Positions 9,687 to 54,377 of a DNA stretch of 64,000 nucleotides are shown in pieces. The first letter of the stretch is position 1. Every line of letters begins with the position of its first letter. This DNA is from Rhizophagus irregularis (lineage: Eukaryota; Glomeromycota; Glomeromycetes; Glomerales; Glomeraceae): NCBI RefSeq assembly GCF_026210795.1, contig NC_089449.1, positions 2,170,001 through 2,234,000 on the forward strand, in the 5' to 3' direction. The translations under genes and the position numbers were made by a program. Under the pieces are notes generated by a model. That model was not told where the DNA came from, did not search any database, and saw only the letters and a list, made by a program, of their open reading frames with translations.

Positions 9687-10899
9687 TGTAAACGGTCGAA
9701 TATCAAGCATGAAAAGATGATAAAATTCAACCACCAAATGTAATTTCCAAATATTAAGAACGAACAAATTGATTGTGAATTGGCGTAGATGGATAAATAA
9801 TTAGCCGAAAAGGATAAACATTTAAGAAGAGTAATGGGAATCCCATAATTTTTATGAACTCAATATTTTAGTAATATATAAACTAAGCGATATCTATAAT
9901 GTTGATAAACATTTAGGAAGAGTAATGATCTACATAATGTAATATTCATCAAGTAGTTGACAAAGAACCAATAGGATAATTAGAGTCGATCAATTGCGGC
10001 TTAGCAATCTTTAACAATAAGAACGATTAGAAAGAATAATTATAAGCCACAAAAGATAGATTATAAGCAAAACACATAAAGTGAATTGAAAGAACATATA
10101 GAATAATGTCAGAAAGATTAAAAAAACACACAAAATAATATAAAAGATAATATAAAAAGATAGTATAAAGATGGAACATAAAAGATAACATATTAAAAAG
10201 AACATATATAAAAAGATAGCATAGCATATTAAAAGATAGCATATTAAACGATAGCATATTAAAAGATAGCGTATTTAAAATATAGATAGTATATTAGAAA
10301 GATAGTTCAAAGATAATATGTAAAAAGAACATAAAAGATAGTATATAGATAGAATAGAAAGTAGTATAAAAATTGTATAAATAGAGAACGGAATTCAAAG
10401 TAATTCCATAGTTCTCATCCACAGAACTCAATAAAAATATAAGTTAAATTTAATTATTTGTTAATGAAGTATAATATTAATTAAAGGTAATAGGTTCACC
10501 CTAAACTTTAACTAATGTTCGCTTAATTAATTTTAATTGAATAAAATGGAAATTTAAGATGAATTAAATATACATTTTTGAAAAGAAATAATTCGTAGCG
10601 AGAGCTATCGAAGTTTGAAATTAAAGGTAAAAGTGGATATAATTTGGGGAAAATTTAGAGAAGTTAAATTTTATTTTATATCATTCGACGTTTTATATTA
10701 CTAACGCTATTTATGTCGTGAACCAAGAATGTTGTTGTATGTTGTTCGTTGATTATGTTGTTTGTTAATTATGACGTTGATTATTTGCTTGTTCGTTTAA
10801 TTGTTCGTTAGTTCGATTATTCGTTCGTTCGACCATGGGAATGCCCGTTCGATGTGGCAACTCTGTAAATTGATGACAGAGGGAATTTGGGGGATCTCA
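9687..10899 (+). repeat. Gypsy 5' LTR
   Basis: The LTR runs from TGTAAACGGTCG to GGGGGATCTCA. It contains a tandem array of about 19-bp AAAGATAGCATATT-type units around 10210-10310, a TATA box at 10376-10384, an AATAAA at 10430-10435, and a TTCGTT/GTTCG-rich stretch near 10735-10835. Apparent minus-strand frames in the array are low-complexity artefacts. Confidence 0.95.
10376..10384 (+). promoter_or_regulatory. Candidate TATA box of the LTR promoter
   Basis: TATAAATAG lies in the 5' LTR, with an identical copy at 20168-20176 in the 3' LTR. The purine-rich AGAACGGAATTC follows. Its placement inside an LTR fits the U3/R border. The transcription start itself is not determinable from sequence. 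Confidence 0.5.
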
Positions 10900-12360
10900 T
10901 ATGGTGCATGCTCCGAGAAAGGAAATGATCATCATCACATGATTATTATTATTATAATGAATATGAAATTTAATTTCGTTAGTAAGTCACTGATAGGTAT
11001 TATTAATCAATATTTTATTTTTAGAATTTATTTTTAGATTTCAGGTTTTGACGAGTTCAAAGGGAACCAATAAATCAATAAGGATTTAATTGAGTTGAAA
11101 ACTTGAAAAGGTGAAAGATTGAAGTTTGGAGTTGTGCAAGTAATCACTTAATCGATAGAAAGCACAAGAATATTTCTTTCGGGAATGAAGTACCTGAGAA
11201 ATTTTATAAGGAGATGGGGAAGTGAAAGATGAATTTTGGAATAAAGATTAATAATGGGAGAACACCAATGCATTATCTGGGGTTCATCTGTGTGGTATGG
11301 GTTACCTCTGAGTTTGAATTTTGGATAAATGCTCGAGATTGGAAAATTTTTATTCTTCGACATTAAAGATTATAACGTATGGGTTACGTCAAATCTGGAT
11401 ACCCAGCTCAATAATGCGCAAATTGCTTTGGGGACGGGGAATGAAAATTGTAAAGACACCTACTATCAAGAAACATTGAATGGATAAAATAGGACAAACC
11501 TGTAAACTATCATGCTTTTACCCAATGGGAAAGAGATAGAGATAAGCCCAGTATAGGTCCACTAATTTGAGGAAAGATAAGTTGGTTTAGATGAGTTTTA
11601 TGGATAGCTGATGACTTTTGAAACCGGATTTTGGAAGGTTAGATTCACCCGTTAAGAGACAAGTCGGCCAACGAAGGAGGAAAAATGGATACGTTGTATT
11701 GTTACAGGTCCTAGGCTACATTTCAGATGAAGGTTCCTGGTGTAGTGTCCTAGTTCACGCTCTCATTACAATATTCCGTTAAAAGAAGATAAAATAGAAG
11801 GATATTTACACATTAACGAGCCGTATAATGAACATTACGTGCAGTATTTAATAATAGAGTAAAATCCGAAAAGAAGGACATTTATTAAAAAGAAGAACAT
11901 TTATTTGAAAAAGAATATTTATTTGAAAAAGAACATTTATTTGAAAAGAAGGACATTTATCTGAAAAGAACGACATTTTGTGCGTTATAGATTAATTTAT
12001 ATAATATAGAATATATAGAGCAAGAAGGATTTATGTGGATGATAAGAAAGATGTGATATGTGAAATTATGGATATCGGTGACAAAAGATAAACTTTGTGG
12101 CGCAGTAAAAACCTCCGCAGTCTGAGGAGATCGTGGACTTAGAATAATTTTTGAAATTTTGAGGCGCAGCAAAAAATTAATAATAGAATATGGAGTAGTA
12201 AATATATAAAATTGAAAGATGGAACTCAAAGATTGAAAGAAGTAATCTATTTAAAGATAAAAGAATGTTTAAAAGATTGAAAATAGAAACGATAAGAGTG
12301 AAATATATATATAAAAGGAGGTGAAATTTTAGTTAAGATTCTGGATGAACGATTACAACG
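10900..12360 (+). other. Gypsy leader with candidate primer-binding site
   Basis: Two bases after the LTR comes TGGTGCATGCTCC (10902-10914), which begins with the TGG expected of a tRNA primer site; the tRNA is not identified. The 1.46-kb leader has no convincing ORF. At 11870-11985 about five tandem copies of a 19-20-nt motif ACATTTATTTGAAAAGA are present. Leaders in gypsy elements carry packaging and dimerisation signals, but none is recognisable here. Confidence 0.5.
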
Positions 12361-15300
12361 ATGGAATGGTACGAAACTTGGAGGGTTGATTACGAAAATC
12401 ACAAATTAAGACATGATGAAAATATCGGAAATATAGATATAGATGAATTAAGGGGAGAAAATATAACATGTGAGATATGTTATCCGACAAGAGATACACC
12501 AGAAGTTTTCAAGAAATTTTGGAAAATATTGCAAAAATTTGAATATACGATAAAAGATTATAATGCAGAAACTATAAGAGCGTTACTAAATTTATTAAGT
12601 ATAGATAGTGAAGAAAGAAATAATTATACAAAAGGAAGGACTAGAGATGCATTAGATGTAATAGTCGAATCGATAAGATACTTGAAACAACCAGTATTAA
12701 GAGAGAAAGGATTAAAAATAATAATAATAGTGATCGTGAGGGATTGTATAGAAAATGATAAAGAAGATGAAACAATGGACAGATTGATAGGGAATGAAGA
12801 ATTAATAAGATATGGTTATATTTTGGAAGATTGGGATGTGAATATAAGATTTGGGGAATTTTATGAGTGGTATAAAGAAGCTATAACAGATTTTATAGAA
12901 TGTAAAGATAGCACTATTAGAAGATACAAAAATATATTATATGAAGAAGCTGAATTAAAAGAAGATGAGTCAACAGAAAAGATAGAAGCGTTCAAACAAA
13001 AGATTAAATTAATGTTGCACACGATGCACATAAAAGTTCGTAAACATGGTTGGGGAATTAGCAAAGAAATAGTTGAAAAGGTTTATGATAAGATTAGGGG
13101 GTTTGAACAGGTAAATATGGATGAAACAGATAGTGATGACACACCGAGAAGTTATACTATAACAGAAACAGATGATGGGGAAGAAGAAAATTTACCGATT
13201 AGTAAAAATGAAGAAATGTCAGATGAGGAATCTAATGAATCTAATAATGTTGAAGAAACAGAAACAACAAAGATATTCGAAGAAATAATTAGAATGGATT
13301 TGAAAAGAATGGGATATGATGTAGAAATAACGGAAATTGAAAGAATAAGAAAATTTGGAGTAACCGCAAAGATAATAACAACATATGAATTTATGAAGAA
13401 ATATTTAACAATATGGAATCTTGAAGATGAAGAATTAGATGGACAAATATTACAATGGAGAGTTGAAAACACAAAAGAATGTGAAAGATGTGAAATTGAA
13501 AGATTAAAGAAAGAATTCAAAATTGGAAAAGAAACTTGCATAGAATGTGAAAAAGATATTGAAAAAGAAAATCCAATAAATGATGAAGATGAAGTGGAAG
13601 AGGATATAAAAGGACCCGAAATTGGCTCAAGTAAAAAATCAAAAAGCAAAAAGGAAAACAAAGAATTGAAGAAAACACCTATAATACCAATAATACCAGT
13701 ACCACCAATAAAACCAAAGATAACAATGGCAGCATCAAGAGATGAACTCAGAGCGGATCTAAGAGCACTAATGAATACTATGTATAATCATGATATTGGG
13801 GCAGATTGGAACAATTTAGCATTACCACCAGTAACATTGACAGGATTACAAGGAGAAGTTCAAGCGAATACTAATGCAATAGGAAATTTAAACGCAAATA
13901 GGGGAGCTATTGTGGAAATACCAGTATTTTATGGTACCAGTGGAGAAGATCCAGAAGAATGGGCAGATAAATTTGAGGAGACATTTACAGCGAATGGTTT
14001 AGGGAATGATGACGCGCAGAGATTTAGATTAGCAAAAGCGAAATTAATGGGAGGAGCAGCAGATTGGTTAAAGACTGAAGGAGTAAATATTGTCGATTGG
14101 AATGTTAATGGAGATCATAATTTAAGATTAAGAGTAAGAATAATTGGAAAGTATGCAAGTGATGAAATTAAAGATAGATGGCTAGAACAATTAGAAAAGA
14201 TTAGACAGGGAGACGAGAATGTAACTCAATACCTTACGAGATTTAAGTATATGTTAAAGAGAGCGGGAGGTGATGCAGCAGTAGCAGCAAATCAGCAAAA
14301 GAGAATTTTTATTAGAGGATTAAAACCGGACTTTACTAAAGACGTAGTAATGGGAAATCCAGCAGATCTAAATGCAACATTTCAGATAGCAAAAAACGTA
14401 GAAAGAGGTTTAGAAGCATTAACAGATAAAGTACAACCAAAAGGAATTAATGATGAACAAAGAAGACAAGAACCTATTGTTCAAGGGAATGTAAGGAATA
14501 ATAAAGGGGTAAGTGTAGATGAATTAGCAGACAGTTTCGCGAAGTTACAAATTAAGATGTTAGAAGATGAGAATGAAAGATTAAGAAATTTAGCGAGTCA
14601 GAGCTATAGGCGATTGCCACAAAGAAACCAACCAATGCAAAGAAACCAACCAATGCAAAGAAGTCAACCAATTCAAAGAAATCAGTCATTCCAAAAAAGG
14701 GTACCGACATGCTATACATGTGGTAGAGTTGGTCATTATTCAGGAGAGTGTCCAGAGAAAAGAAGGAATGCGAGAATAAATGTGATGGACGAATATGATG
14801 ATCAAGAAGAATATGATTATGATGGATATGAATATGGGGAACCACAATACGGTGAAATGTATTATACACAAGGTTATTACGATGATTATGAAGATAGGGA
14901 ATTAAATTACCATAATGAATTATACGCAAAAGATAACGCAGTAAAAACAAGAAGACAAACAAGAAGGTCGAATCCAATAATGGGATATAAAAATAATGGT
15001 GAAGAAGGAAATTTACAAGAAGAATTAAGAGAAGCGGGAAATAGAATGGATGATAGAGAAATACCAAGTGGAACAACAACACCAAGATATACGCCTGAAA
15101 GGATAGAACAAAATAATGTATACAAAGATAGTCAAAATTGGGATAGTCCAATAGGACCAGAAGATTATAATTATGGTCGGCGACCCATGACAAAAGATGG
15201 AAGATTTTATAAACCAATGTTCACAAAGGAAGGCAAAGCATTTTACCCTGGAATGCGGCAAGATGAATTTGGAAATTGGGTTAGAACAAAGCCATCAGGG

Positions 15301-15486
15301 ACAGGAAAGCCCAGAGAATATGGACTGAGATTAACTGATGGAATACCACCTTACGATATTGTGGAAGACGTGAAAAATTGTAGAGCGAATATAACAATTG
15401 GACAAATGATAAATGAGAATACTAAGTATCATAAACAATTGAGAGAAGGAACATATAGACCAAGAAGCATAAATGAGAAAAATTGA
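12361..15486 (+). CDS. gag: Gypsy Gag with long N-terminal extension
   Basis: 1041 residues. Residues 518-690 are a typical retrotransposon Gag capsid segment (VFYGTSGEDPEEWADKF ... TQYLTRFKYM ... RIFIRGLKPDF). A CX2CX4HX4C zinc knuckle starts at Cys784 (CYTCGRVGHYSGEC), following Q/R-rich repeats of NQPMQR. Residues 1-455 are an added acidic, helical-looking region of unknown type, with a CX2C-x15-CX2C motif at 374-396 and a Pro/Ile linker (TPIIPIIPVPP) just before an internal Met at 456 that could be the original Gag start. The C-terminal 240 residues are rich in Tyr, Asp and Arg. The frame is intact. The stop is TGA in the context TGA-CTA, with protease in the same frame. Gag assembles the cytoplasmic particle and binds element RNA; the role of the extension is unknown. 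Confidence 0.9.
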   Translation: MEWYETWRVDYENHKLRHDENIGNIDIDELRGENITCEICYPTRDTPEVFKKFWKILQKFEYTIKDYNAETIRALLNLLSIDSEERNNYTKGRTRDALDVIVESIRYLKQPVLREKGLKIIIIVIVRDCIENDKEDETMDRLIGNEELIRYGYILEDWDVNIRFGEFYEWYKEAITDFIECKDSTIRRYKNILYEEAELKEDESTEKIEAFKQKIKLMLHTMHIKVRKHGWGISKEIVEKVYDKIRGFEQVNMDETDSDDTPRSYTITETDDGEEENLPISKNEEMSDEESNESNNVEETETTKIFEEIIRMDLKRMGYDVEITEIERIRKFGVTAKIITTYEFMKKYLTIWNLEDEELDGQILQWRVENTKECERCEIERLKKEFKIGKETCIECEKDIEKENPINDEDEVEEDIKGPEIGSSKKSKSKKENKELKKTPIIPIIPVPPIKPKITMAASRDELRADLRALMNTMYNHDIGADWNNLALPPVTLTGLQGEVQANTNAIGNLNANRGAIVEIPVFYGTSGEDPEEWADKFEETFTANGLGNDDAQRFRLAKAKLMGGAADWLKTEGVNIVDWNVNGDHNLRLRVRIIGKYASDEIKDRWLEQLEKIRQGDENVTQYLTRFKYMLKRAGGDAAVAANQQKRIFIRGLKPDFTKDVVMGNPADLNATFQIAKNVERGLEALTDKVQPKGINDEQRRQEPIVQGNVRNNKGVSVDELADSFAKLQIKMLEDENERLRNLASQSYRRLPQRNQPMQRNQPMQRSQPIQRNQSFQKRVPTCYTCGRVGHYSGECPEKRRNARINVMDEYDDQEEYDYDGYEYGEPQYGEMYYTQGYYDDYEDRELNYHNELYAKDNAVKTRRQTRRSNPIMGYKNNGEEGNLQEELREAGNRMDDREIPSGTTTPRYTPERIEQNNVYKDSQNWDSPIGPEDYNYGRRPMTKDGRFYKPMFTKEGKAFYPGMRQDEFGNWVRTKPSGTGKPREYGLRLTDGIPPYDIVEDVKNCRANITIGQMINENTKYHKQLREGTYRPRSINEKN

Positions 15487-15489
15487 CTA
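15484..15489 (+). promoter_or_regulatory. Candidate stop-codon readthrough signal between gag and protease
   Basis: The gag stop is TGA followed directly by CTA. The same frame continues open (CTA CAC TCG GTG GGA ACT ATG) into protease. UGA-CUA is an established leaky stop context in viral and some cellular mRNAs. Readthrough here is inferred, not shown. Confidence 0.5.
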
Positions 15490-15504
15490 CACTCGGTGGG
15501 AACT

Positions 15505-15999
15505 ATGAAAAATGAAGAGAAAAGAACTACAGCAATGAGAACAGAATTAGAAGTTGAAGATCAATTAGTGAATGTAATAATAGATACTGGAGCAGCAGTA
15601 AGTGTGATAACAGACAAATTAAGGAGGAGATTGAATATACCTATATTTGGAAAAAGTAAATTTAGATGTACAATAGCAAATGGGCAAAAGATAGCAGCGT
15701 TAGGAAAGGCAAATATAACTTTGAGATACAAAGATGAATTGGAAATACTAAAAGAAGTTGAGGTAATCGATTCAGAAGAAGAGGATCTAATTTTGGGAAA
15801 TGATATATGGAAGCTGTATAATGCAAAAATAAATTTTGAAGATCATACCTTAAGAATAGAAGAACAAGGAGAAATAATAACGATTCCAGTAGGATATGAA
15901 AGAGAAGCAATATGTGAAAGTGAGGAGAGCGAGGATGACGAAGAATATGAAAGCAACGATGAAGGAGAGGTATTCAAAATGCACCAGAATTTTAAATAG
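15505..15999 (+). CDS. Retropepsin-type aspartic protease
   Basis: The protein carries the active-site motif IIDTGAAVSVI about 25 residues after the ATG at 15505 and the distal flap/helix motif LILGNDIW. Together these define a retropepsin that acts as a dimer to process Gag and Pol. The frame is the same as gag and open back to the gag TGA at 15484, so it is either made by readthrough or started at this ATG. The C-terminal tail is very acidic (ESEESEDDEEYESNDEGE). The protease stop (15997-15999) overlaps by a few bases the open frame of the RT ORF, which lies in the -1 frame. Family assignment is firm; the mode of expression is inferred. Confidence 0.85.
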   Translation: MKNEEKRTTAMRTELEVEDQLVNVIIDTGAAVSVITDKLRRRLNIPIFGKSKFRCTIANGQKIAALGKANITLRYKDELEILKEVEVIDSEEEDLILGNDIWKLYNAKINFEDHTLRIEEQGEIITIPVGYEREAICESEESEDDEEYESNDEGEVFKMHQNFK

Positions 16000-16034
16000 A
16001 AAGTCTTGGCTCTGAAGAGAGAGAGACGGAAAAG

Positions 16035-18116
16035 ATGCTCGAACCAAGTGGAAAATTTATGCAAAAACTAAGTATAGGGAAAGTAGAAGAACCAATTTGG
16101 GAAAATATGGTAAAATTACTATTAGAATACCAGGATATTTTAGAATATGATGAGGAAATAGAAGGAAGAACAAAAGCAGCGCAACATGAAATAAAGATAA
16201 AAGAGGGGGTAGAACCAATAAAGCAAAGAAGATACAAAGAAACAGATGAAAAAGCAAAATTTATAAGCGAAGAAGTGGATAAATTGTTAAAACAAGGAAG
16301 GATAAGGAAATCAAAAAGTCCATGGAGTTCACCGGTTACGTTAGCAGGAAAGAAAACGGGAAAATATAGATTCTGTATTGATTACAGAAAGCTAAACAAG
16401 ATAACTATAATGGATAGTTTTCCTTTACCAAGAATGGATGAATTGTTAGACAAATACAGAAAAGCAAAATGGTTTTCAAGTATAGATTTAGCGGCAGGAT
16501 TTAATCAAGTAGAAATGAAAGAAGAAGACAAAGAAAAAACAGCATTTGTATGTTCAAAGGGATTATTTGAGTATAATGTAATGCCATTCGGTTTAACGAA
16601 TGCACCAGCAACATTTCAAAGATTAATGGATGAAATATTAGAAGAATACATAAACGATTTTGTAGTAGTATATATTGACGATATTATGATATATTCAGAA
16701 AATTTAAAAGACCATATGGAACATGTGGAAAAAGTATTAAAGAAGTTACAGGAGAATAATTTAATAATAAAACTAAAGAAATGTAGATTTTTGGAAAGAA
16801 ATATAGAATTTTTAGGACATATAGTAGGAAATGATGGATTAAGGCCAGACGATAAAAAGATAGAAAAGATAAAAGAAATGAAGGCACCAACAACAGTGAA
16901 AGAAGTAAGATCATTTTTGGGACTTTGTTCATATTACAGAAAATTTGTGAAGAATTTTTCAAAGATAGCAAGACCAATAAGTGATTTGAGAAAGAAGGGA
17001 ATACCTTTCATTTGGGGAAGAGAACAACAAGAAGCGTTTGAAAAATTGAAAGAAAAGTTAATACAATATCCAATATTGCGACATCCAGATTGGAAGAAAG
17101 AATTTTTATTAATAACAGATGCATCAGGAAAAGGATTAGGTGCAGTATTAAGTCAAAAAGATGAAAAAGGAAAAGAAGTAGTAATAGCATATGCAAGTAG
17201 AAGTTTATTACCAGCAGAAGAAAATTATCCGATAACAGAATTGGAATGTTTAGGAATAGTTTGGGGAATTCAACACTTTCATAAATATTTAATCGATAGA
17301 AAATTTAAAGTAATAACAGATCACAGTGCATTAAAAGGATTAATGAATGCAAAGATACCAAAAGGAAAAAGAGCAAGATGGGTGATGGAATTACAGCAGT
17401 ATAATTTTGAAGTAATACATAGGTCGGGAAAAGAAAATACGAATGCTGACGCATTAAGTAGGTTATTAAAGATAGTAGAGGATCAACCAGAAATAGTAAT
17501 AATTGATGGAGTAGACGGATTAGGAAAAACAAGTATAGTACAAAATTTAATTAAAGAATGGGAAAAACAAGGATTAAAAGTAAGATTCAATACTTATAAA
17601 AGAAGAAGAAAAGATAAAGATGAATTTTATGAATCAAAGATGGAGACGGAATGGAAATTTAGAAAAGAAGTAGTGGAACAAATAAATAGAAGAATGTTAG
17701 AATATGACGAAGATACAGATATAATAATTTTAGACAAATCACCATATTGTGAATATTATTATCAAAAGACGAAAAGTTTTGACAGAGGATTAATTACTCC
17801 ATATGGAAATCATGAGATGGAGAAAGAAATATTCAGATTGAAAGATACAATAGATAAATCAATAGTGATATTTTTAGAAAAAGATGGCGATGTATGTTGG
17901 AAAAATTACATTGGAAGAGAGACAAAGAAAACGGAAAAATCATCATACCCAACATTAAAGAAGGATGAATATTTGGACATGGTTAAAATGTTTGAAGAAA
18001 ATCAGAGTGTGTACAAAGATACTAAAAGATACAGTCGAGTAAAAGTTAAAAATGACAATAGTAGTTGGAGAAAAGTATTTAAAGAGGTGGAGAAATGGAG
18101 AAGAGCACAGAACTAA
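16035..18116 (+). CDS. Reverse transcriptase-RNase H fused to a thymidylate-kinase-like domain
   Basis: 693 residues. Residues about 50-330 are Ty3/gypsy RT: SIDLAAGFNQVEM, VMPFGLTNAPATFQ, and the catalytic YIDD at 213-216. RNase H follows with ITDASGKGLGAVLS, TELEC and ITDHSAL, ending in the usual NADALSRL near residue 477. Fused directly after it, residues about 484-693 form a P-loop kinase. It has a Walker A GVDGLGKTS at 492-500 preceded by a hydrophobic strand, ILDKSPYCEYYYQ at 565-577 (matching the DR-x-x-S-x-x-AYQ motif of dTMP kinases and deoxynucleoside kinases, with Lys for Arg), and a strand SIVIFLEKDGD before a lid-like ETKKTEKSSY segment. Known: such enzymes phosphorylate deoxynucleosides or their monophosphates. 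Inferred: it supplies dNTP precursors in the particle. Codon use matches the rest of pol and there is no lesion. Confidence 0.88.
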   Translation: MLEPSGKFMQKLSIGKVEEPIWENMVKLLLEYQDILEYDEEIEGRTKAAQHEIKIKEGVEPIKQRRYKETDEKAKFISEEVDKLLKQGRIRKSKSPWSSPVTLAGKKTGKYRFCIDYRKLNKITIMDSFPLPRMDELLDKYRKAKWFSSIDLAAGFNQVEMKEEDKEKTAFVCSKGLFEYNVMPFGLTNAPATFQRLMDEILEEYINDFVVVYIDDIMIYSENLKDHMEHVEKVLKKLQENNLIIKLKKCRFLERNIEFLGHIVGNDGLRPDDKKIEKIKEMKAPTTVKEVRSFLGLCSYYRKFVKNFSKIARPISDLRKKGIPFIWGREQQEAFEKLKEKLIQYPILRHPDWKKEFLLITDASGKGLGAVLSQKDEKGKEVVIAYASRSLLPAEENYPITELECLGIVWGIQHFHKYLIDRKFKVITDHSALKGLMNAKIPKGKRARWVMELQQYNFEVIHRSGKENTNADALSRLLKIVEDQPEIVIIDGVDGLGKTSIVQNLIKEWEKQGLKVRFNTYKRRRKDKDEFYESKMETEWKFRKEVVEQINRRMLEYDEDTDIIILDKSPYCEYYYQKTKSFDRGLITPYGNHEMEKEIFRLKDTIDKSIVIFLEKDGDVCWKNYIGRETKKTEKSSYPTLKKDEYLDMVKMFEENQSVYKDTKRYSRVKVKNDNSSWRKVFKEVEKWRRAQN

Positions 18117-18176
18117 AAATACAGAACACATAACGAAAATAACAAATTTAGAAGTGAAATCAATTAAAGAGGTATT

Positions 18177-19402
18177 ATGGAAGAAAATAATTATAAGAAA
18201 ATAATTGACAATATCGAAAAGGAGAATAAATATGAATTGAAAGAAGGAATTCTATATAGAGTAAAAGGACAAAACAAATTTAGAGTAATCAGGGATTATG
18301 AATACGAAGGATTGATGTACATGATGCATGATAACGAATTATCAGGACATTTTGGAGTAGAAGCGACATTAGATAGAATAAAAGAAAATTATTGGTGGAA
18401 AAATATGAAAGAAGATGTAGAAGAATATGTAAAAACGTGTTGGAATTGTCAAATGAGAGGAAAACCAAGAGGAAAGAACGAATTAATGCCAATAAAGATA
18501 AATGAACCATTCGAGATGATTGGAATAGATATAGTTGGACCATTAAAAGAGACAGAAAAGGGAAATAAGTATATTGTAGTAGCAATGGATTATTTTACAA
18601 AATGGCCGAGGCCGCACCACTAAAAGAAGCTACAGCAAAAGAAGTGGTAGAATTTATTTGGAGAGACATAATTTGTAGACATGGATGTCCAAAGAAAATA
18701 ATTAGCGATAGAGGGACTCACTTTAACAATAAAATGATGGAAGAATTAGTAGAAAGATGTGGGATAAATCATAGATTAAGTACACCATATAGGCCACAAA
18801 CAAATGGTTTGGTCGAAAGATTCAATAAAACTTTATGCGAAGGATTAGCCAAATTAGGGGAAGAAAACTGGGATAAACATATACCATCCGTATTATTTGC
18901 ATACAGAACAAAGAAGCAATCGTCAACAAGAATTAAACCTTTTTATGCAACATACGGAAGGAGAGCGAAATTACCATTAGACAAAGATGAAAACAAGATA
19001 ACATTAGCTGATAGAGTAAAAATACTAATTGAGGAGCTACCAGTAATAAGAAGAAAAATGAAAGAGAACGTGGAAGAAGCTCAGGAAAAACAAAAACAAC
19101 AACATGACAAAAGAGGAATTAGGAAACCTAAATTTGAAATAGGAGAAAAAGTATTATTATACGAAGCGTGGAGAGAAAAACAATGGTCTGGAAAATTACA
19201 GAACAAATGGAAAGGACCATATTTAATTCACGAAGAATTTGGAAATGGGGCATATAAACTCAAAGAATTGGATGGAAGAATACTAAAGACTCCGCAAAAT
19301 GGAGAATGGTTAAAGAAATTTTATGATCGAAGGGGATTTACACCAAAAATAGTAATTAAAGGAAAAGAGGTATTCGATAAGACCCGAGTTCGATTCGATT
19401 AA
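18177..19402 (+). pseudogene. Integrase with a single-base frameshift
   Basis: The first part (18177-18623) has the HHCC zinc domain (HDNELSGHFG ... CWNC) and the first catalytic Asp (IGIDIVGPL). The second part, read in another frame from about 18602, has the remaining DDE residues in ISDRGTHFNN and NGLVERFNK and a GPY motif (KWKGPYLI) but no chromodomain. The break lies near 18608 in TGGCCGAGGCC, where one base appears to be missing inside the conserved TKWPEA-type segment. It is the only obvious lesion in the element. The ORF lies in the same frame as RT-kinase, but two in-frame TAA codons (18114-18116 and 18165-18167) separate them. Integrase would insert the cDNA; this copy should not make a full-length enzyme. 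Confidence 0.88.
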
Positions 19403-19464
19403 AATTATTATGGATAAGACACGAGTTCGATTCTATTAGAGTTATTTGTGAGGTCACAAATAGC

Positions 19465-19478
19465 GAAGAGGGGGATAA
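19465..19478 (+). promoter_or_regulatory. Polypurine tract before the 3' LTR
   Basis: GAAGAGGGGGA followed by TAA lies directly before the TG of the 3' LTR at 19479. This is the expected place and composition for the plus-strand DNA primer. Confidence 0.7.
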
Positions 19479-20691
19479 TGTAAACGGTCGAATATCAAGC
19501 ATGAAAAGATGATAAAATTCAACCACCAAATGTAATTTCCAAATATTAAGAACGAACAAATTGATTGTGAATTGGCGTAGATGGATAAATAATTAGCCGA
19601 AAAGGATAAACATTTAAGAAGAGTAATGGGAATCCCATAATTTTTATGAACTCAATATTTTAGTAATATATAAACTAAGCGATATCTATAATGTTGATAA
19701 ACATTTAGGAAGAGTAATGATCTACATAATGTAATATTCATCAAGTAGTTGACAAAGAACCAATAGGATAATTAGAGTCGATCAATTGCGGCTTAGCAAT
19801 CTTTAACAATAAGAACGATTAGAAAGAATAATTATAAGCCACAAAAGATAGATTATAAGCAAAACACATAAAGTGAATTGAAAGAACATATAGAATAATG
19901 TCAGAAAGATTAAAAAAACACACAAAATAATATAAAAGATAATATAAAAAGATAGTATAAAGATGGAACATAAAAGATAACATATTAAAAAGAACATATA
20001 TAAAAAGATAGCATAGCATATTAAAAGATAGCATATTAAACGATAGCATATTAAAAGATAGCGTATTTAAAATATAGATAGTATATTAGAAAGATAGTTC
20101 AAAGATAATATGTAAAAAGAACATAAAAGATAGTATATAGATAGAATAGAAAGTAGTATAAAAATTGTATAAATAGAGAACGGAATTCAAGGTAATTCCA
20201 TAGTTCTCATCCACAGAACTCAATAAAAATATAAGTTAAATTTAATTATTTGTTAATGAAGTATAATATTAATTAAAGGTAATAGGTTCGCCCTAAACTT
20301 TAACTAATGTTCGCTTAATTAATTTTAATTGAATAAAATGGAAATTTAAGATGAATTAAATATACATTTTTGAAAAGAAATAATTCGTAGCGAGAGCTAT
20401 CGAAGTTTGAAATTAAAGGTAAAAGTGGATATAATTTGGGGAAAATTTAGAGAAGTTAAATTTTATTTTATATCATTCGACGTTTTATATTACTAACGCT
20501 ATTTATGTCGTGAACCAAGAATGTTGTTGTATGTTGTTCGTTGATTATGTTGTTTGTTAATTATGACGTTGATTATTTGCTTGTTCGTTTAATTGTTCGT
20601 TAGTTCGATTATTCGTTCGTTCGACCATGGGAATGCCCGTTCGATGTGGCAACTCTGTAAATTGATGACAGAGGGAATTTGGGGGATCTCA
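19479..20691 (+). repeat. Gypsy 3' LTR
   Basis: Same length (1213 bp) and boundaries as the 5' LTR. I see two substitutions on reading the copies side by side: G for A at 20191 and G for A at 20290. This supports recent insertion. Confidence 0.95.
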
Positions 20692-22830: not shown

Positions 22831-23655
22831 AGCTAGAAGTAGAAGGGAGAACTAAAATATGTAATAGTTAATAGTAACGCGAAGTAAATAATAAAAATAC
22901 TTCAAAAAAATCTTTTTATTTTTTGTCGCAATATTGTCGTGAAGGCAACAGGAGAGAGTTTTTAGTTTTTTTAGTTTTATCCTTTTGCGATCACTGGCTG
23001 ATGAGTTATTCAACAAAATGTTAAGCATCGGCATTATTATATTTCTTGATTTACGTTTACTGCGCCATTTAACATTTTGCTAAATTTCTCAGTACCTAGT
23101 GATTGTAAAAAGACGATTAATAGCTCGTTGGAATCGCCTCATCAAGACGAATCGAATGGTGGTAAGCTCATCTCTCTGTGATCAATATTGACGGAGTTAC
23201 TACTTAAAAACCATTTAATATTTTTTAATTTCGGAAATTGATCTAGTGATTGGATTTCGATGTATTTTATACCATTGGATTCGCCGCATTAAGACGAATC
23301 GAATGGTAGTAAGATTGTCTCTCCAGGATCAATATTGACAGAGTTATTACACAAAAACTATTAATATTTTTTTAATTTTGGAAATTAATCTAGTGATTGG
23401 ATTTCTATGTATTTTATACCATTAGAACCGTCTCATCAAGACGAATCGAATGGCGGTAAGATCATCTCTCTACGATTAATATTAGTGGAGCTATGATACA
23501 ATAAAGTTTTGAGTATAATTTTGGCTAAAATTATGTTAATTTTTGGCCGGAATTATGATATACTAATATAAGAAATTTTTTATATAGTCACATCTCTTTA
23601 TAATCACCAAATATGGACTGTCCCAAATGTATGACTATAAAGAGAGTTGACTGTA

Positions 23656-24212: not shown

Positions 24213-25319
24213 CAGTCAACTCTCTTTATAGTCACACATTTGGGACAGTCCATATTTGGTGATTATAAAGAGATGTGACTATATAAAAAATTTCTTATAT
24301 TAGTATATTATAATTCCGGCCAAAAATTAACATAATTTTAGCCAAAATTATACTCAAAACTTTATTGTATCGTAACTCCGCCAATATTAATCGTAGAGAG
24401 ATGATCTTACCGCCATTCGATTCGTCTTGATGAGACGGTTCTAATGGTATAAAATACATCGAAATCAAATCACTAGATTAATTTCCGAAATTAAAAAAAT
24501 ATTAATGGTTTTTGTGTAATAACTCTGCCAATATTGATCCTAGAGAGACGATCTTACCGCCATTCGATTCGTCTTGATGAGACGGTTCTAATGGTATAAG
24601 ATACATCGAAATCCAATCACTAGATTAATTTCCGAAATTAAAAAATATTAATGGTTTTTGTGTAATAACTCTGCCAATATTGATCCTAGAGAGACAATCT
24701 TACTACCATTCGATTCGTCTTAATGCGACGAATCTAATGGTATAAAATACATCGAAATCCAATCACTAGATCATTTTCCGAAATTAAAAAATATTAAATG
24801 GTTTTTAAGTAGTAACTCCGTCAATATTGATCACAGAGAGATGAGCTTACCACCATTCGATTCGTCTTGATGAGGCGATTCCAACGAGCTATTAATCGTC
24901 TTTTTACAATCACTAGGTACTGAGAAATTTAGCAAAATGTTAAATGGCGCAGTAAACGTAAATCAAGAAATATAATAATGCCGATGCTTAACATTTTGTT
25001 GAATAACTCATCAGCCAGTGATCGCAAAAGGATAAAACTACCACCATTCGATTCATCTCAGTGAGACGATTCTAACAAGCTATGATACATCTTTGTACGA
25101 TTATTAGATGCCAAGTTATTTAATATATTCTTTATATAACTGTGATTATAAACGGTTCTTTTTAATATAAGATTTTTGAGGATAGGTGTGATAGTGACTA
25201 TAGATAGATTGTGACTATATAGGATAGTTTTTAATAATAAAGTGTTTTGAACATTCAACTGGTGTGACTATATAGTAGAATGTGACTATAACGGGAGTGA
25301 CTATAGAGGGAGTTGACTG
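24213..25319. mobile_element. TA-flanked MITE copy 2, uninterrupted, inverted
   Basis: The ends CAGTCAACTCTCTTTATAG and its inverse lie between TA dinucleotides (24211-24212 and 25320-25321). Five hairpin modules (GATTCGTCTTGATGAGACG-type) are spaced about 148 bp apart. At 25025-25041 it contains the intact complement of the 17-bp site at which copies 1 and 3 carry LINE and SINE-like inserts. 1107 bp, no ORF; a small frame at 25058-25258 is part of the repeat. The 670 bp to the right (25320-25988) is AT-rich and shows no gene. Confidence 0.85.
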
Positions 25320-27262: not shown

Positions 27263-27942
27263 TAGTTTTATCCTTTTCCGATCACTGGCTGACGAGTTAT
27301 TCAACAAAATGTTAAACATCGGCATTATAATATTTCTTGATTTACGTTTACTGCGCCATTTAACATTTTGCTAGATTTCTCGGTACCTAGTGATTGTAAA
27401 AAGATGATTTATAGCTCGTTGGAATCGCCTCATTAAGACGAATCGAATGTGATAAGCTCATCTCTCTGTGATCAATATTGACGGAGTTATTACTTAAAAA
27501 CAATTTAATATTTTTTAATTTCAGAAATTGATCTAGTGATTGGATTTCGATGTATCTTATACCATTAGATTCGTCTCATTAAGACGAATCGAATGGTAGT
27601 AAGATAGTCTTTCTAGGATCAATATTGACAGAGTTATTACACAAAAACCATTAATATTTTTTTAATTTCAGAAATTAATCTAGTGATTGGATTTCTATGT
27701 ATTTATACCATTAGAACCGTCTCATCAAGACGAATCGAATGGCAGTAAGATTATCTCTCTACGATTAATATTGGCGAAGTTACGATACAATAAAGTTTTA
27801 AGTATAATTCTGGCTAAAATTATGTTAATTTTTGGCCGGAATTATGATATACAAATATAAGAAATTTTTTATATAGTCACATTTCTTTATAATCACCAAA
27901 TATAGACTGTCCCAAATGTGTGACTATAAAGAGAGTTGACTG

Positions 27943-37738: not shown

Positions 37739-39235
37739 TTATACTGTTTGCGTCATACCAACAGTGGGTGGACTATAGGGTCCAAGTAATCCACTAAAAA
37801 AAAGCAGAATAAACTGTGTTAGACACAATGCTAAGTTTTCGCAGTATCAAAATTCACATACCTTGGCCGTCGCCTTTGTTTAATTTGTTGTTGTATTTTT
37901 ACTGAAGCATCAAGTGGCTTAAGTAGTTCAAAACTGCACAAAAGTTCCTCATTCACACTCATCACTGCCCCAAAGTTATCAAATTCTCCACAATAATTTG
38001 GAGCAGAGAACACAGTTACCAGTTTCCTATCGTCAAAAAACTCATAACCATCCTCAACAACCATATGGGCGCGACATACTAAATCAAAGTCGTGTCGTTG
38101 CAAAAATTCACTAATAATTGCTTTGCCGAAACAATAGCTAACGCCTCGCTCATTATCCTCCCAATCTACAGCTGTTTCCGAAGGGTCTGACCATAATAAA
38201 TCATTTAGAAGTCCATAATCTGGAACGTCAGTGGGACGTTGAATACTTCGAATCTCATCCATAGATGAGAGAGAAGGCGATAAACCACCATGTACACAGA
38301 AAATTTTATTTGCCACAATGGCAGCAATTGGTAGACAATTGAACACACCTATAAAAGCTTTCCATATTTTGAGACTTAATCGACGTTTACATTCGTCATA
38401 AAATCCATATACTTGAAATTAAATAAAAAATGATACGATAAATGATCTAACACACTGTAATACAAAACTTAGCATTTAAATTCTAATCAAAAATTTTACC
38501 TCTTGTCACATTTGCACATTCGTGATTACCCCTCAGTAGAAAAAAATTTTCCGGGTATTTAATCTTGTAACAGAGTAAAAGCAGTATAGTTTCTAAGCTC
38601 TGCTTCCCACGATCCACATAATCGCCGAGAAATAGATAATTTGCTGCAGGTGGAAACCCACACATATCAAATAACCGAATGAGGTCCGAATATTGACCAT
38701 GAACATCACCGACTATTTTGACTGGTGGAGAAAGTTCAATGAGCGCCGGCTGTGATAAGAATATATCACGTGCAGCTTGACAAATAGCATGTATTTCCGC
38801 GCTTTTTAGGGGAACAGATTTTGAAACCTTATTAGAATATCCAGCTACAATGAGACGTTGTATCATATCATCAACCTCCAAAGACTTCACATAATCATTG
38901 CCTGTCACCAGTGTAAATGCGTTATTTTGACCAGGAGTGGGCATCTGTCCATTTGAATCATTTGTCTCCGTAGCATTATTATGGGAATCATTATTCCCAT
39001 TTGGTCGTAGGAGAATTGATTCCATAGGTGATGAAGGTGAACTGTCTTCAGAATTGGTTAATATATTATTATTAGGATTGGTGTCTACAGCTAATTCATC
39101 GACTATCAAATTTACAGGACCTGCACCCGAACCAGAATCATTTTCTTTTCTGTCTTTTCTCTTTTCTTCATTTGAAACATCATTACTATTCTTCGACAAA
39201 CTCAACGAATGTTTCTTCGAAGAAGAGTTTCCCAT
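37739..39235 (-). CDS. PPZ/PP1-type serine/threonine protein phosphatase
   Basis: Three exons on the minus strand, 39235-38500, 38411-37862 and 37793-37739, join in phase to 446 residues. MGNSSSKK is an N-myristoylation signal. About 120 Ser/Asn-rich residues follow. The PPP catalytic core then has [39 protein letters not shown] and [11 protein letters not shown], giving all the metal and phosphate ligands. A Ser/Asn-rich myristoylated extension plus a PP1-like core is the layout of yeast PPZ1/PPZ2, regulators of cation homeostasis. The last intron (donor GTATGT) removes a short tail, giving the end [18 protein letters not shown]. If it is retained the protein ends YVNFDTAKT instead. The PP1 versus PPZ choice rests on the N terminus. 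Confidence 0.92.
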
Positions 39236-45695: not shown

Positions 45696-46394
45696 TAGGG
45701 ATGGTTAGGTCAGTTCTGGTCCGGTCTTGGTCCTGGGACCTATAAGTCCTATTGAACGGACCTGCGGACCAGGTCCTGTTAGGACCTGGTCCTGACTAAG
45801 TTATTTATAGATTTTATGAATTTTAGTAATAATTAAATATAAAAAAAGTGAGTTGTGGTATCGCGATTCACTTTTTCATATTGATTTTATATAAAAAAAG
45901 TGAGTTGCGGTATCGGGATTCACTTTTTTATATTGATTTTATATAAAAAAAGTGAGTTGCAGTATCGCGATTCACTTTTTTATATTGATTTTATATAAAA
46001 AAAGTGAGTTGCGGTATCGCGATTCACTTTTTTATATTGATTTTATATAAAAAAAGTGAGTTGTGGTATCGCGATTCACTTTTTTATATTGATTTTAATA
46101 TAAAAATGTGAATCGCAATATCGCAACTCATTTTTTATATGATTTTAATAATATAAAAATTGTATTGCAATATTGCAGTGCACTTTTTTATAATTTATAA
46201 TTACTTAATATCAAATTTACAGCAAATTATACATATATAATTTAAACATATAGGTCTCTTATAACCTTATTGGCTAGGACTTTTTAGGACCTGGTCCGCT
46301 TCTGGTCCAAAATTTGGACCTAAAGATCTGCAGACCAGGTCCAGGTCCTAGGACCAGGTCTTTAGGTCCAGGACATAGGACTTTACCATCCCTA
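45696..46394. mobile_element. hAT-like MITE with GGTCCTGG-rich ends, 699 bp
   Basis: Ends TAGGGATGG and CCATCCCTA, flanked by a perfect 8-bp duplication ATGCCGGA (45688-45695 and 46395-46402), as in hAT elements. It splits one micro-exon body of the surrounding array. The subterminal regions are dense in GGACCTGGTCC palindromes. The centre (45840-46100) is five tandem copies of a palindromic unit of about 52-60 bp containing AGTGAGTTGCGGTATCGCG. Confidence 0.85.
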
Positions 46395-51927: not shown

Positions 51928-52169
51928 TATCAATGTTAAAAAGATGATTTTAGTTCCATTTAAACTATTTTGATGAGCACTAGTCGAAAAAGGAATATTC
52001 GGCCTTAATACAATTTGGCCTATATTCGACTAGAATTAATAAAATTCGACTTCAATTAGTAAAGATCTACGATTAGACATATATTCAACCTAGTTGAATT
52101 ATGTTAATCAAACGTTACGCATTACATGATACGCGTATTAAAATAAAAGTTTAAAAAAGGATGATCCTT

Positions 52170-52330
52170 TTTTAAACTTTTTTAATTTTCTTCCTTCCCT
52201 CCTCGCCCTTTCCCTTCCTTCGTTCCCCTTTTCCTTCGTCCCAGTTTCTCTTCTTCCCCTTTCCCTTCCTTCGTTCTCCTTTCCCTTCCTTCGCTTTTCC
52301 CTTCCTTACCCTTTCCCCTTTCCTTTCGTC
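52170..52330 (+). repeat. Pyrimidine-rich tract upstream of the micro-exon array
   Basis: About 160 nt of CTTCCTTCC/CCCTTTCCC words on the plus strand, preceded by the inverted pair AAGTTTAAAAAAGGAT and ATCCTTTTTTAAACTT. The same arrangement precedes the decayed array at 59320-59480, so it is a conserved part of the locus. Confidence 0.6.
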
Positions 52331-52698
52331 ACTTATCTCTTTCGAAAGTATACATATATCTTCGAATTTTTACTTTTTTTAACGAAACGTTTCACTAACG
52401 TTTTCGTTTTTTTCTTTTTTAGATTCAAGACACCCATTTAAAAGGCTCGGGTGGGCTTCCGAAGTATGGAAAAACTAAGTTTCATAAGTACGAAACTTGG
52501 TTTATTTATTTTTTTTTTTAATTTAGTATGAACGGTTACTAACCGTTCTTTTATTACTTTTTTTTTAAATTCGGCCATTCGGGTGGGCTTCCGAAGTATG
52601 GAAAAACCAAGTTTCGTAAATATGAAACTTGGTTTATTATTTTTTTTTTAATTTAATATGAACGGTTACTAACCGTTCTTTTTTTACTTTTTTTTTAG

Positions 52699-54002
52699 GT
52701 TCAGCCGTTCGAGTGGGCTTCCGTGTTCCGAAGAACGGGAAAATTCCAAAGATTCGTAAGAATCTTGGATTTTTTTTTTATTTTTTTAAAAAAATATTAT
52801 GAACGGTTACTAATAACCGTTCTTTTCTATTTTTTAGGATTGGGTGGGCTTCTGAAGAACGAAAACCCAAAGATTCGTACGAATCTTCAATATTTTTTAT
52901 TTTTGATTATTGCGAATGGTTTACTAACCATTCTTTCTTTTTTTTTATAGGATCGGGTGGGCTTCCGAAGAACGAAAACCCAAAGATTCGTACGAATCTT
53001 CAATCTTTTTTTATTTTTGATTATTACGAATGGTTTACTAACCATTCTTTCTTTTTTTTAGGATCGGGTGGGCTTCTGAAGAATAAAAACCCAAAGATTC
53101 GTAAGTACGAATCTTTAATTTTTGTTTTTATTTATTATTATTACGAATGGTTTACTAACCATTCTTTCTTTTTTTTATAGGTTCGGGTGGGCCTGAAGAA
53201 CGAAAACCCAAAGATTCGTAAGTACGAATCTTTAATCTTTTTTTTATTTATTATTATTACGAATGGTTTACTAACCATTCTTTCTTTTTTTTAGGTTTGG
53301 GTGGGCTTCGAAGAACGAAAACCCAAAGATAAAGATTCGTAAGTATAGTACGAATCTTTATATATTTTTTATTTTTATTTTTTTATCATTTTGGAACGGT
53401 TTACTAACCGTTCTTTCTTTATAGGTTCGGGCGGGCTTTTGTGTGGAAAAACCAAGATTCGTAAGTATGAATCTTGGTTTAATTTTTTTAATTTTTTTTT
53501 TTAATATTAATGAACGGTTACTAATAACCGTTCTTTCTTTTTTTAGGATCGGGTGGAGTGGGCTTCCGACCTTCGGGAAAAAGAAGAACCAAGATTCGTA
53601 AGTACGAATCTTGGTTTATTTTTTTAATTTTTTTTTTTTAATATTACGAACGGTTACTAATAACCGTTCTTTCTTTTAGGATCGGGTGGGTGGGAGCTTC
53701 CGGACCTTCGGGAAGAAGAACAAGATTCGTAAGTACGAATCTTGGTTTATTTTTTTGATTTTTTTTTTAATATTATTATGAACGGTTACTAATAACCGTT
53801 CTTTTCTTTTCTTTTAGGTCTCGAGTGTCTCAGGTGTCTTCTGAAGAACGGAAAAAACCAAAGATTCGTAAGTAAGTACGAATCTTGGTTTTTTTTCTTA
53901 TTTTTTTAATATTATGAACGGTTACTAACCGTTCTTCTTTTTTTTATAGGTTCGGATGGATTGCTAAAGAACAATCAAAGATTCGTATATACGAATACAT
54001 GA
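52699..54002 (+). CDS. Candidate micro-exon gene inside the CACTA-like element
   Basis: Predicted exons: 52699-52755, 52838-52876, 52951-52989, 53062-53100, 53181-53217, 53295-53338, 53425-53460, 53547-53597, 53680-53728, 53818-53867 and 53950-54002. Joined, they keep one frame open for 163 codons to TGA 54000-54002 (two bases of a first codon come from upstream). Exons of 37 and 44 nt, and of 49 and 50 nt, are adjacent pairs whose frame changes cancel. The product repeats SGGLPKNENPKIR-like 13-mers and is strongly basic. Introns are 72-89 nt with GTAAGT-like (or GTACGA) donors inside AAGATTCGTA/TACGAATCTT hairpins, TACTAA branch sites inside GAATGG/CCATTC or GAACGG/CCGTTC hairpins, and TTTTAG or TATAG acceptors. 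Two further units at 52422-52640 have damaged splice sites. The start codon and function are unknown; no family recognised. Confidence 0.5.
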
Positions 54003-54377
54003 ATCATGTAATTGTGGAATTGTATTAGAATTAGCAATATTTTTTGTAAATTAGATAGATGCAATAATAATAATATAATTATAAAGTATTTAAGCATTAA
54101 TAAATACATTTATTTAATAAATTTGATAAAAAAAATCAAAATAAATTCATAAATAAATGGGTTGTTATTAGACCATAATTCGGCTTAAAGTTTTAAGATC
54201 GAATATTGGTCAATTTAAACCTAAATAATGGTCGAATAATTAGTCTGAATTTGGGACGATTGGCACCCTAAATGCGCCCGAAAATTCGACCTCAATTTGA
54301 CACAGGTTAGACCATCATTCGACCTATATTCGACCTGGTCAAATTTAGGCCGAATTGTCCTTTTTCAACTAGTGGAG

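Follow-up and report, generated by a model that had tools for sequence, protein, structure and literature searches.

A transposon of the CACTA type occupies positions 51978-54374 of the window, by which we mean the whole 64,000-nucleotide stretch of Rhizophagus irregularis DNA that was analysed (C21:2170001-2234000, in a genome of 146.7 Mb and 32 contigs), and the family to which it belongs is best read, with a probability that we put at roughly two in three, as non-autonomous CACTA (EnSpm/CMC) elements carrying a transcribed and probably spliced exon-intron satellite, non-coding or incidentally coding, in which the hairpins around the splice signals are conserved and the peptide is not. The family is real and, within a known kind of transposon, an odd variant, and a published description of a hairpin-array CACTA family was not found in the literature searched, among the matches listed.

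The ends of the element were located by comparison of its TIRs, CACTAGTCGAAAAAGG on the left (51978-51993, plus strand; the 17-mer CACTAGTCGAAAAAGGA was also followed through the genome) and CACTAGTTGAAAAAGG on the right (54359-54374, minus strand), which differ from each other by one change and are flanked by the two copies of a GAG TSD, read directly from the sequence at 51975-51977 and 54375-54377. CACTA-type TIRs with a GAG duplication had already been proposed in the first-pass annotation and are borne out, as is its right boundary at 54374, but its left boundary at 51977 has to be moved by one base, since that base is part of the TSD. All further parts lie on the plus strand. A left subterminal region (51994-52190) contains TTCGRCC-like repeats and a near-perfect palindrome with arms of 18 bp (52145-52181), and is followed by a pyrimidine-rich stretch (52191-52384) upstream of the first branch-site hairpin, AAACGTTTCACTAACGTTT (52385-52403), the arms of which are unlike in sequence those of the later ones. 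Twelve more branch-site hairpins, with arms GAACGG/CCGTTC or GAATGG/CCATTC around TACTAA and with donor hairpins in between, fill the region 52530-53934, and the right part of the element with its subterminal region (53985-54358) carries TTCGACC/TCGGCC repeats.

The thirteen branch-site hairpins define thirteen exon-like bodies after acceptor positions, in agreement with the thirteen tandem units counted earlier, and both an acceptor and a donor are present in eleven of these, which is likewise the number of intact units originally given. A unit of the window copy consists of a body of mostly 36-57 nt, the donor, a T-rich spacer, the branch site, a T tract and TAG. By eye, the damaged units are the first, where the donor GT after a 61-nt body (52423-52483) has become AT at 52484, and the second, which has TAA instead of TAG as acceptor. 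The intact bodies begin with one of 57 nt (52699-52755, donor GTAAGA, a TAG acceptor immediately upstream), two of 39 nt with donor GTACGA (52838-52876 and 52951-52989) and a third of 39 nt (53062-53100), whose GTAAGT donor lies within a hairpin at 53093-53116; GTAAGT is also the donor of the following six, which measure 37 nt (53181-53217), 44 nt (53295-53338), 36 nt (53425-53460), 51 nt (53547-53597), 49 nt (53680-53728) and 50 nt (53818-53867). The last unit, of 35 nt (53950-53984), probably opens a terminal exon, since the hairpin ATTCGTATATACGAAT comes next and no further branch hairpin lies downstream.

The element is one of many in this genome. Its left 214 bases match at least about 40 genomic sites (40 of 131 candidates scored) and its array at least 181 pieces (40 of 400 candidates scored), and there are 44 exact copies of the 17-base TIR word and 165 of a 17-base word from the branch hairpin, as opposed to none for the control of the former and none for the reversed control of the latter. 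When the loci hit in these searches were merged into stretches, twelve elements with both ends were obtained, of 1.4-4.3 kb, and all twelve have a 3-bp TSD, different in every case (GAG, TCA, GCC, TAG, TTG, TAC, TTA, ATG, TAA, TTT, GAT and GGG), while a thirteenth pairing of ends, which has no TSD, uses a second possible left end for one of the twelve. Empty sites were found for both copies for which they were searched: the joined flanks of the copy on contig C2 are 94-97% identical, across the site and over the full 257 bases, to 17 paralogues of the gene that this copy interrupts, and those of the copy on C13 match one paralogue at 96% over their full length. Furthermore, the copies on C13 and C5 are near-identical and yet have different TSDs, which suggests recent movement.

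The first-pass annotation had proposed a search for homologous elements with a transposase; the homologues exist, but none of the 155 genomic transposase matches reported for the PF02992 profile lies, among the matches listed, inside the twelve elements, and the family is therefore non-autonomous. Neither a transposase nor a recognisable captured host gene was seen when open reading frames of at least 110 codons in the elements were inspected by eye. A PF02992 transposase frame of 814 residues on C18 adjoins a TIR with one change, CACTAGTCGAAATAGG, and a search of 5.1 kb there did not reveal the second end of that element.

Unit types follow the same order from copy to copy, with local repeats, among them six consecutive 46-nt units on C4, and longer copies (for example those on C13, C5 and C30) have additional exon-like parts on the 5' side, the introns of which have other hairpin sequences and, by eye, the same layout. 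A purine-rich repetitive stretch (AAACGAAAGGGG and similar), absent in the window copy, is found between the early introns of three longer members (L040, L041 and L042). A 5.3-kb relative (L077, C25:1273080-1278490) has the same 16-bp TIR, two ends that are very similar in sequence, and 6 branch motifs in one orientation with 10 in the other, in the manner of a fold-back element, and its flanks are without a 3-bp direct duplication. In addition, a left and a right family TIR stand 27.5 kb apart at C14:3710116-3737652 with several arrays inside, and this could be a large or nested element.

The window contains other repetitive sequence as well. A Ty3-type LTR retrotransposon lies at 9687-19778 (repeats to about 20621), with identical direct repeats of at least 300 bp placed 9,792 bases apart, and the Ty3-type pol frame at 16035-18116 has, after its RNase H domain, a weak match to thymidylate kinase (E 0.00096, 19.3 bits, less than the Pfam cut-off of 27). 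About seven tandem copies of a 52-bp palindromic unit (arms AAAAAAGTGA / TCACTTTTTT) are found at 45837-46192, and 147-bp tandem repeats at 23128-23483 and 24373-24881, the consensus units of which appear by eye to be mutual reverse complements; a third array, at 27422-27773, is related to these, again as judged by eye.

The architecture of splice signals that had been noticed in the window copy recurs across the family. Among 319 bodies that could be parsed with a donor position in the family stretches the donor hexamer is GTAAGT in 222, and among the matches listed there are at least 20 units in which the donor GT reads AT. An AG is found no more than 45 nt past the end of the branch hairpin at 351 of 353 branch sites, and the first AG after the hairpin is part of a TAG in 345 and lies at a distance of 10-24 nt in 348; the spacer upstream of the branch site, which is equally T-rich, has 0.22 AG per 100 nt. 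GT donor, branch site, pyrimidine tract and YAG come in a fixed order, and this is the layout of a spliceosomal intron.

A feature that the first-pass annotation did not contain is that donor and branch site are located in separate and usually perfect hairpins. Perfect hairpins of at least 7 bp hold the donor in 293 of 318 units and the branch site in 215 of 275, versus 13 of 318 and 3 of 275 after single-base shuffling. In the donor hairpin the last bases of the body pair with the start of the intron, body end CCAAGATTC with intron GAATCTTGG, body end AAAGATTC with intron GAATCTTT, and GTTTC with GAAAC. In 272 of 305 units the body end and the paired arm stand 4, 8, 12 or 16 bases apart, mostly by way of added GTAA, which places a second GT 4 nt downstream of the first. 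The arms moreover vary together: in 114 distinct units, 4 of the 14 donor-arm positions are paired more often than in any of 200 shuffles and the remaining 10 are not, the innermost five positions having served to set the register. In a random sample of 45 out of 166 distinct units, the donor helix reaches a covariation score of 0.119 versus 0.064 shuffled (0 of 500), with slid controls at 0.032 or less, and 21 double-change cells are seen versus 9.8 (0 of 500 shuffles), while two weaker measures give 5 double-change pairs versus 3.3 (34 of 500 shuffles reach 5) and 10 further pair types versus 8.9 (142 of 500), all of these shuffle tests being inflated by the relatedness of the units. Ten matches to Rfam families were obtained at E up to 1, all below the gathering scores, and were taken as chance.

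Divergence between copies was compared for 169 nearest pairs, kept out of 225 complete units at an identity of at least 88% and with the partners on different stretches. Outside CpG the bodies have a value of 0.0171, the spacers one of 0.0112 and the donor hairpins one of 0.0054, the last of these being partly lowered by the fact that the region was found by sequence pattern, an effect that is strong for the branch region and biases its value of 0.0006. In whole-element alignments the donor hairpin likewise diverges less than the body in 6 of 7 comparisons, and the closest pair has zero non-CpG divergence for both. Decay of the CpG in donors has kept the GT in 19 cases and destroyed it in 22, and 281 are intact. 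Single copies thus seem to decay neutrally after insertion, with no sign of selection on the donor, and if so the layout is kept in the mobile lineages or is regenerated by a palindrome-making process.

Splicing of the micro-exons, as proposed earlier, receives indirect support from public gene models, which are themselves predictions. The joined peptide used as a query gave 134 protein matches, and the 120 that are listed are all from R. irregularis. Eleven of these 120 could be mapped exactly, with a spliced aligner that prefers few introns, onto ten family arrays (P0013 and P0020 on the same array); the other 109 were unmapped on the stretches examined, and none of the 120 maps to the array of the window copy. 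The 137 introns mapped in this way have their donor at the hairpin in 92 cases, at +4 in 28 and elsewhere in 17, and their acceptor is TAG in 132. Some of the matching proteins belong to the RIR17 annotation, which, as described in the accessible part of its report (PMC6123716), was made by AUGUSTUS with RNA-seq intron hints, has RNA-seq, homology or motif support for the deposited models, and comprises 41,572 genes and 43,675 isoforms. Isoforms.t2 to.t6 are present among the family gene models, and because extra isoforms are few in RIR17 these suggest that read-derived intron hints were involved, although reads mapping to multiple copies could yield the same. Two models of one gene, P0047 and P0052, apparently differ by one unit and have different ends too, and in a comparison of proteins P0005 and P0010, the models of which lie on contigs of equal length, appear to read shared units in different frames and then rejoin. 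Going by these models the family arrays are probably spliced, with the reservation that sites so close to consensus would attract a gene finder whether or not reads support them. It should also be mentioned that CMC-EnSpm is among the TE superfamilies with higher expression in colonised tissue (PMC11075540); the accessible part of that paper holds no mention naming the hairpin-array family.

A different explanation of the array is that it is an unspliced satellite of hairpins at the DNA level, in which template switching or repair creates the palindromes and keeps them perfect, and the splice-like words are by-products. We consider this unlikely, but it deserves to be taken seriously, since a 482-nt array fragment has on either strand a better fold than each of 100 shuffles (z -7.3 and -9.8). 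It would furthermore agree with the palindromes present throughout at donor and branch site, with arm distances in multiples of four as if made by GTAA steps, and with the apparently neutral CpG decay of the donors. However, the T tract and the precisely placed TAG that follows it are strand-specific and lie outside the palindromes, which therefore do not account for them, and the early introns of the longer copies combine different hairpin sequences with a layout that is, by eye, identical. The isoforms in the public models, which come from a pipeline with RNA-seq intron hints, are likewise in poor agreement with an array that is never spliced.

The array might alternatively be a mobile protein-coding gene, in which micro-exons are joined into a repeat protein and alternative splicing, through donors 4 nt apart and exon skipping, combines with changes in unit number to produce variable peptides. 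The 134 matching public proteins speak for this, as do the unit apparently skipped between P0047 and P0052, the apparent use of different frames over the same units by P0005 and P0010, and the +4 donor in 28 of the 137 mapped introns, but it should be remembered that programs which build gene models seek open frames, and that the mapped models differ in start position, with no common start established. In the window copy, joining the intact bodies does give the stop-free frame that the first-pass annotation reported, with a length of 158 codons (476 nt) instead of 163, and the pairs 37+44 and 49+50 do add up to multiples of three as noted. Stops are indeed present in the other frames, but there are four and three of them over several units and not in unit 6 only, and the repeated peptide motif loses its frame across the 37/44 pair, where it reads SGGPEERKPKDSFGWASKNENPKIKIR.

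An open frame of this kind is in fact easily obtained. Few stops occur in the exon consensus, whichever of the three frames is read, and when the order of the units in the window copy is shuffled, an equal or greater openness is reached by 35% of the shuffles of 10 bodies (P=0.354), and 27% of those of 11 bodies are fully open. Joined frames that are routinely broken in homologous arrays, which had been named at the outset as evidence against the proposal, are what the family displays: with the main donor only, 14 of 18 arrays of at least 8 bodies are broken and 4 are open throughout, versus 4.5 after unit-order shuffling, and 9 of 17 arrays with at least 6 bodies have a stop in every frame. 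Across the family the length of the body is not divisible by three in 182 of 319 cases, and 42 of the 47 body indels in the 169 nearest-unit pairs break the frame, 33 of the 47 being single-base indels to which base-run errors could contribute. Conservation of frame between copies was not found.

The best trace of coding found, and it is a weak one, is an excess of open frames when the donor may be chosen freely between +0 and +4, since 16 of 18 arrays are then open versus a shuffled mean of 12.1 (P=0.002) and 13.1 under a frame-jitter null (P=0.029). A role of the +4 donors as frame correctors, which the P of 0.002 had at first favoured, was rejected for want of specificity relative to control offsets and on account of relatedness: offsets of -2 and +1, which are not splice sites, each keep 17 of 18 arrays open (P=0.025 and P=0.075), +4 itself gives 16 of 18 with P=0.062 under the slightly different unit choice of the control-offset script, and when each related group is represented by a single array, P for the excess is 0.23. 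Taken with the body lengths, the indels and an openness at the level of shuffled arrays, this leaves the conserved coding frame and the variable-peptide generator of the first-pass annotation unsupported; a peptide generator is unlikely, a protein-coding gene appears quite improbable, and the evidence says that the array is not coding, or incidentally so only.

That the family consists of introner-like elements, removed entirely or for a large part by splicing from the transcripts of host genes, is very improbable, for although copies interrupt open frames, such as that of a CACTA transposase on C4 and, by eye, that of a C2 gene taken as a pogo-like transposase, and non-autonomous DNA transposons have given rise to introners in other lineages (PMC9860276, in the part accessible), good splice sites inside the element would leave many exon bodies in the mRNA, the left edge is by eye without a consensus donor, and the recognisable interrupted genes are other transposons. 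Single introns of the hairpin type in genes were considered too and discarded, the three apparently isolated branch motifs examined (of seven) being further arrays. A phosphatase-like gene in the window (37831-39235), the one gene inspected by eye for such introns, seems to have ordinary short introns with no such hairpins.

If the array is a spliced satellite within a non-autonomous CACTA element, as we prefer to think, it would be transcribed in the plus direction and its small introns would be taken out by the host spliceosome, the product being a spliced non-coding RNA or possibly an incidental set of peptides. Mobilisation would depend on transposase from autonomous CACTA relatives elsewhere in the genome. 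The array probably grows by tandem duplication of one exon-plus-intron unit, because the order of unit types is common to the copies and there are local repeats, and selection on the mobile lineages may have retained the ends and the splice and hairpin signals and not the reading frame. Spliceable introns might allow the element to pass as a normal gene, limit its harm in transcribed regions or regulate its product. A more far-reaching and decidedly tentative notion, to which we would give less than even odds, is that a CACTA family has spread structured spliceosomal introns, with donor and branch site at the tips of two hairpins and with covarying donor arms, and that repeated spliceability as such has been selected with no protein needed, for example by presenting the look of an intron-bearing gene to the silencing machinery or by tuning isoforms.

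If the arrays are spliced, one genome holds many natural copies that vary in hairpin stability, donor spacing and intron number, and the family would lend itself readily to testing, in a fungus, what the structure around donor and branch site does to splicing. Furthermore, what R. irregularis annotations list as hypothetical proteins can in many cases be transposon arrays, and this bears on gene counts and on searches for effectors.

In comparison with known systems, the family resembles CACTA/EnSpm/CMC elements in its TIRs beginning with CACTA, its 3-bp TSD and its short subterminal repeats, and it resides in a genome with many PF02992 matches, but its interior is an array of hairpin-framed exon and intron units. 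Repeat-bearing effectors are known from the same species: according to the accessible part of PMC11333574, the SP7-like effectors of R. irregularis have imperfect hydrophilic tandem repeats, the ends of which carry the family motif Y[KR]Rx[AP]x[AP], and a conserved intron upstream of the first repeat. The likeness lies in the species, the imperfect hydrophilic tandem repeats and the intron before the first repeat; an SP7-like effector gene was nevertheless rejected as an identification, since the motif is absent and by inspection the joined sequence of the window copy lacks tyrosine in all three frames. Introners are similar in being non-autonomous DNA elements that bear spliceosomal splice sites (PMC9860276, in the part accessible), but each of their insertions adds a single intron, with its splice sites at the edges, whereas here each element has many complete tandem introns. 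Finally, tandem GYNNGY donors are a class of alternative 5' splice sites 4 nt apart (PMC4267661, in the part accessible), and the sequences GTAAGTAC and GTAAGTAAGT of the family likewise place two donors at this distance, the second being that used at +4 in the mapped introns; what distinguishes the family is that the arrangement recurs within a hairpin loop in many units of a transposon array.
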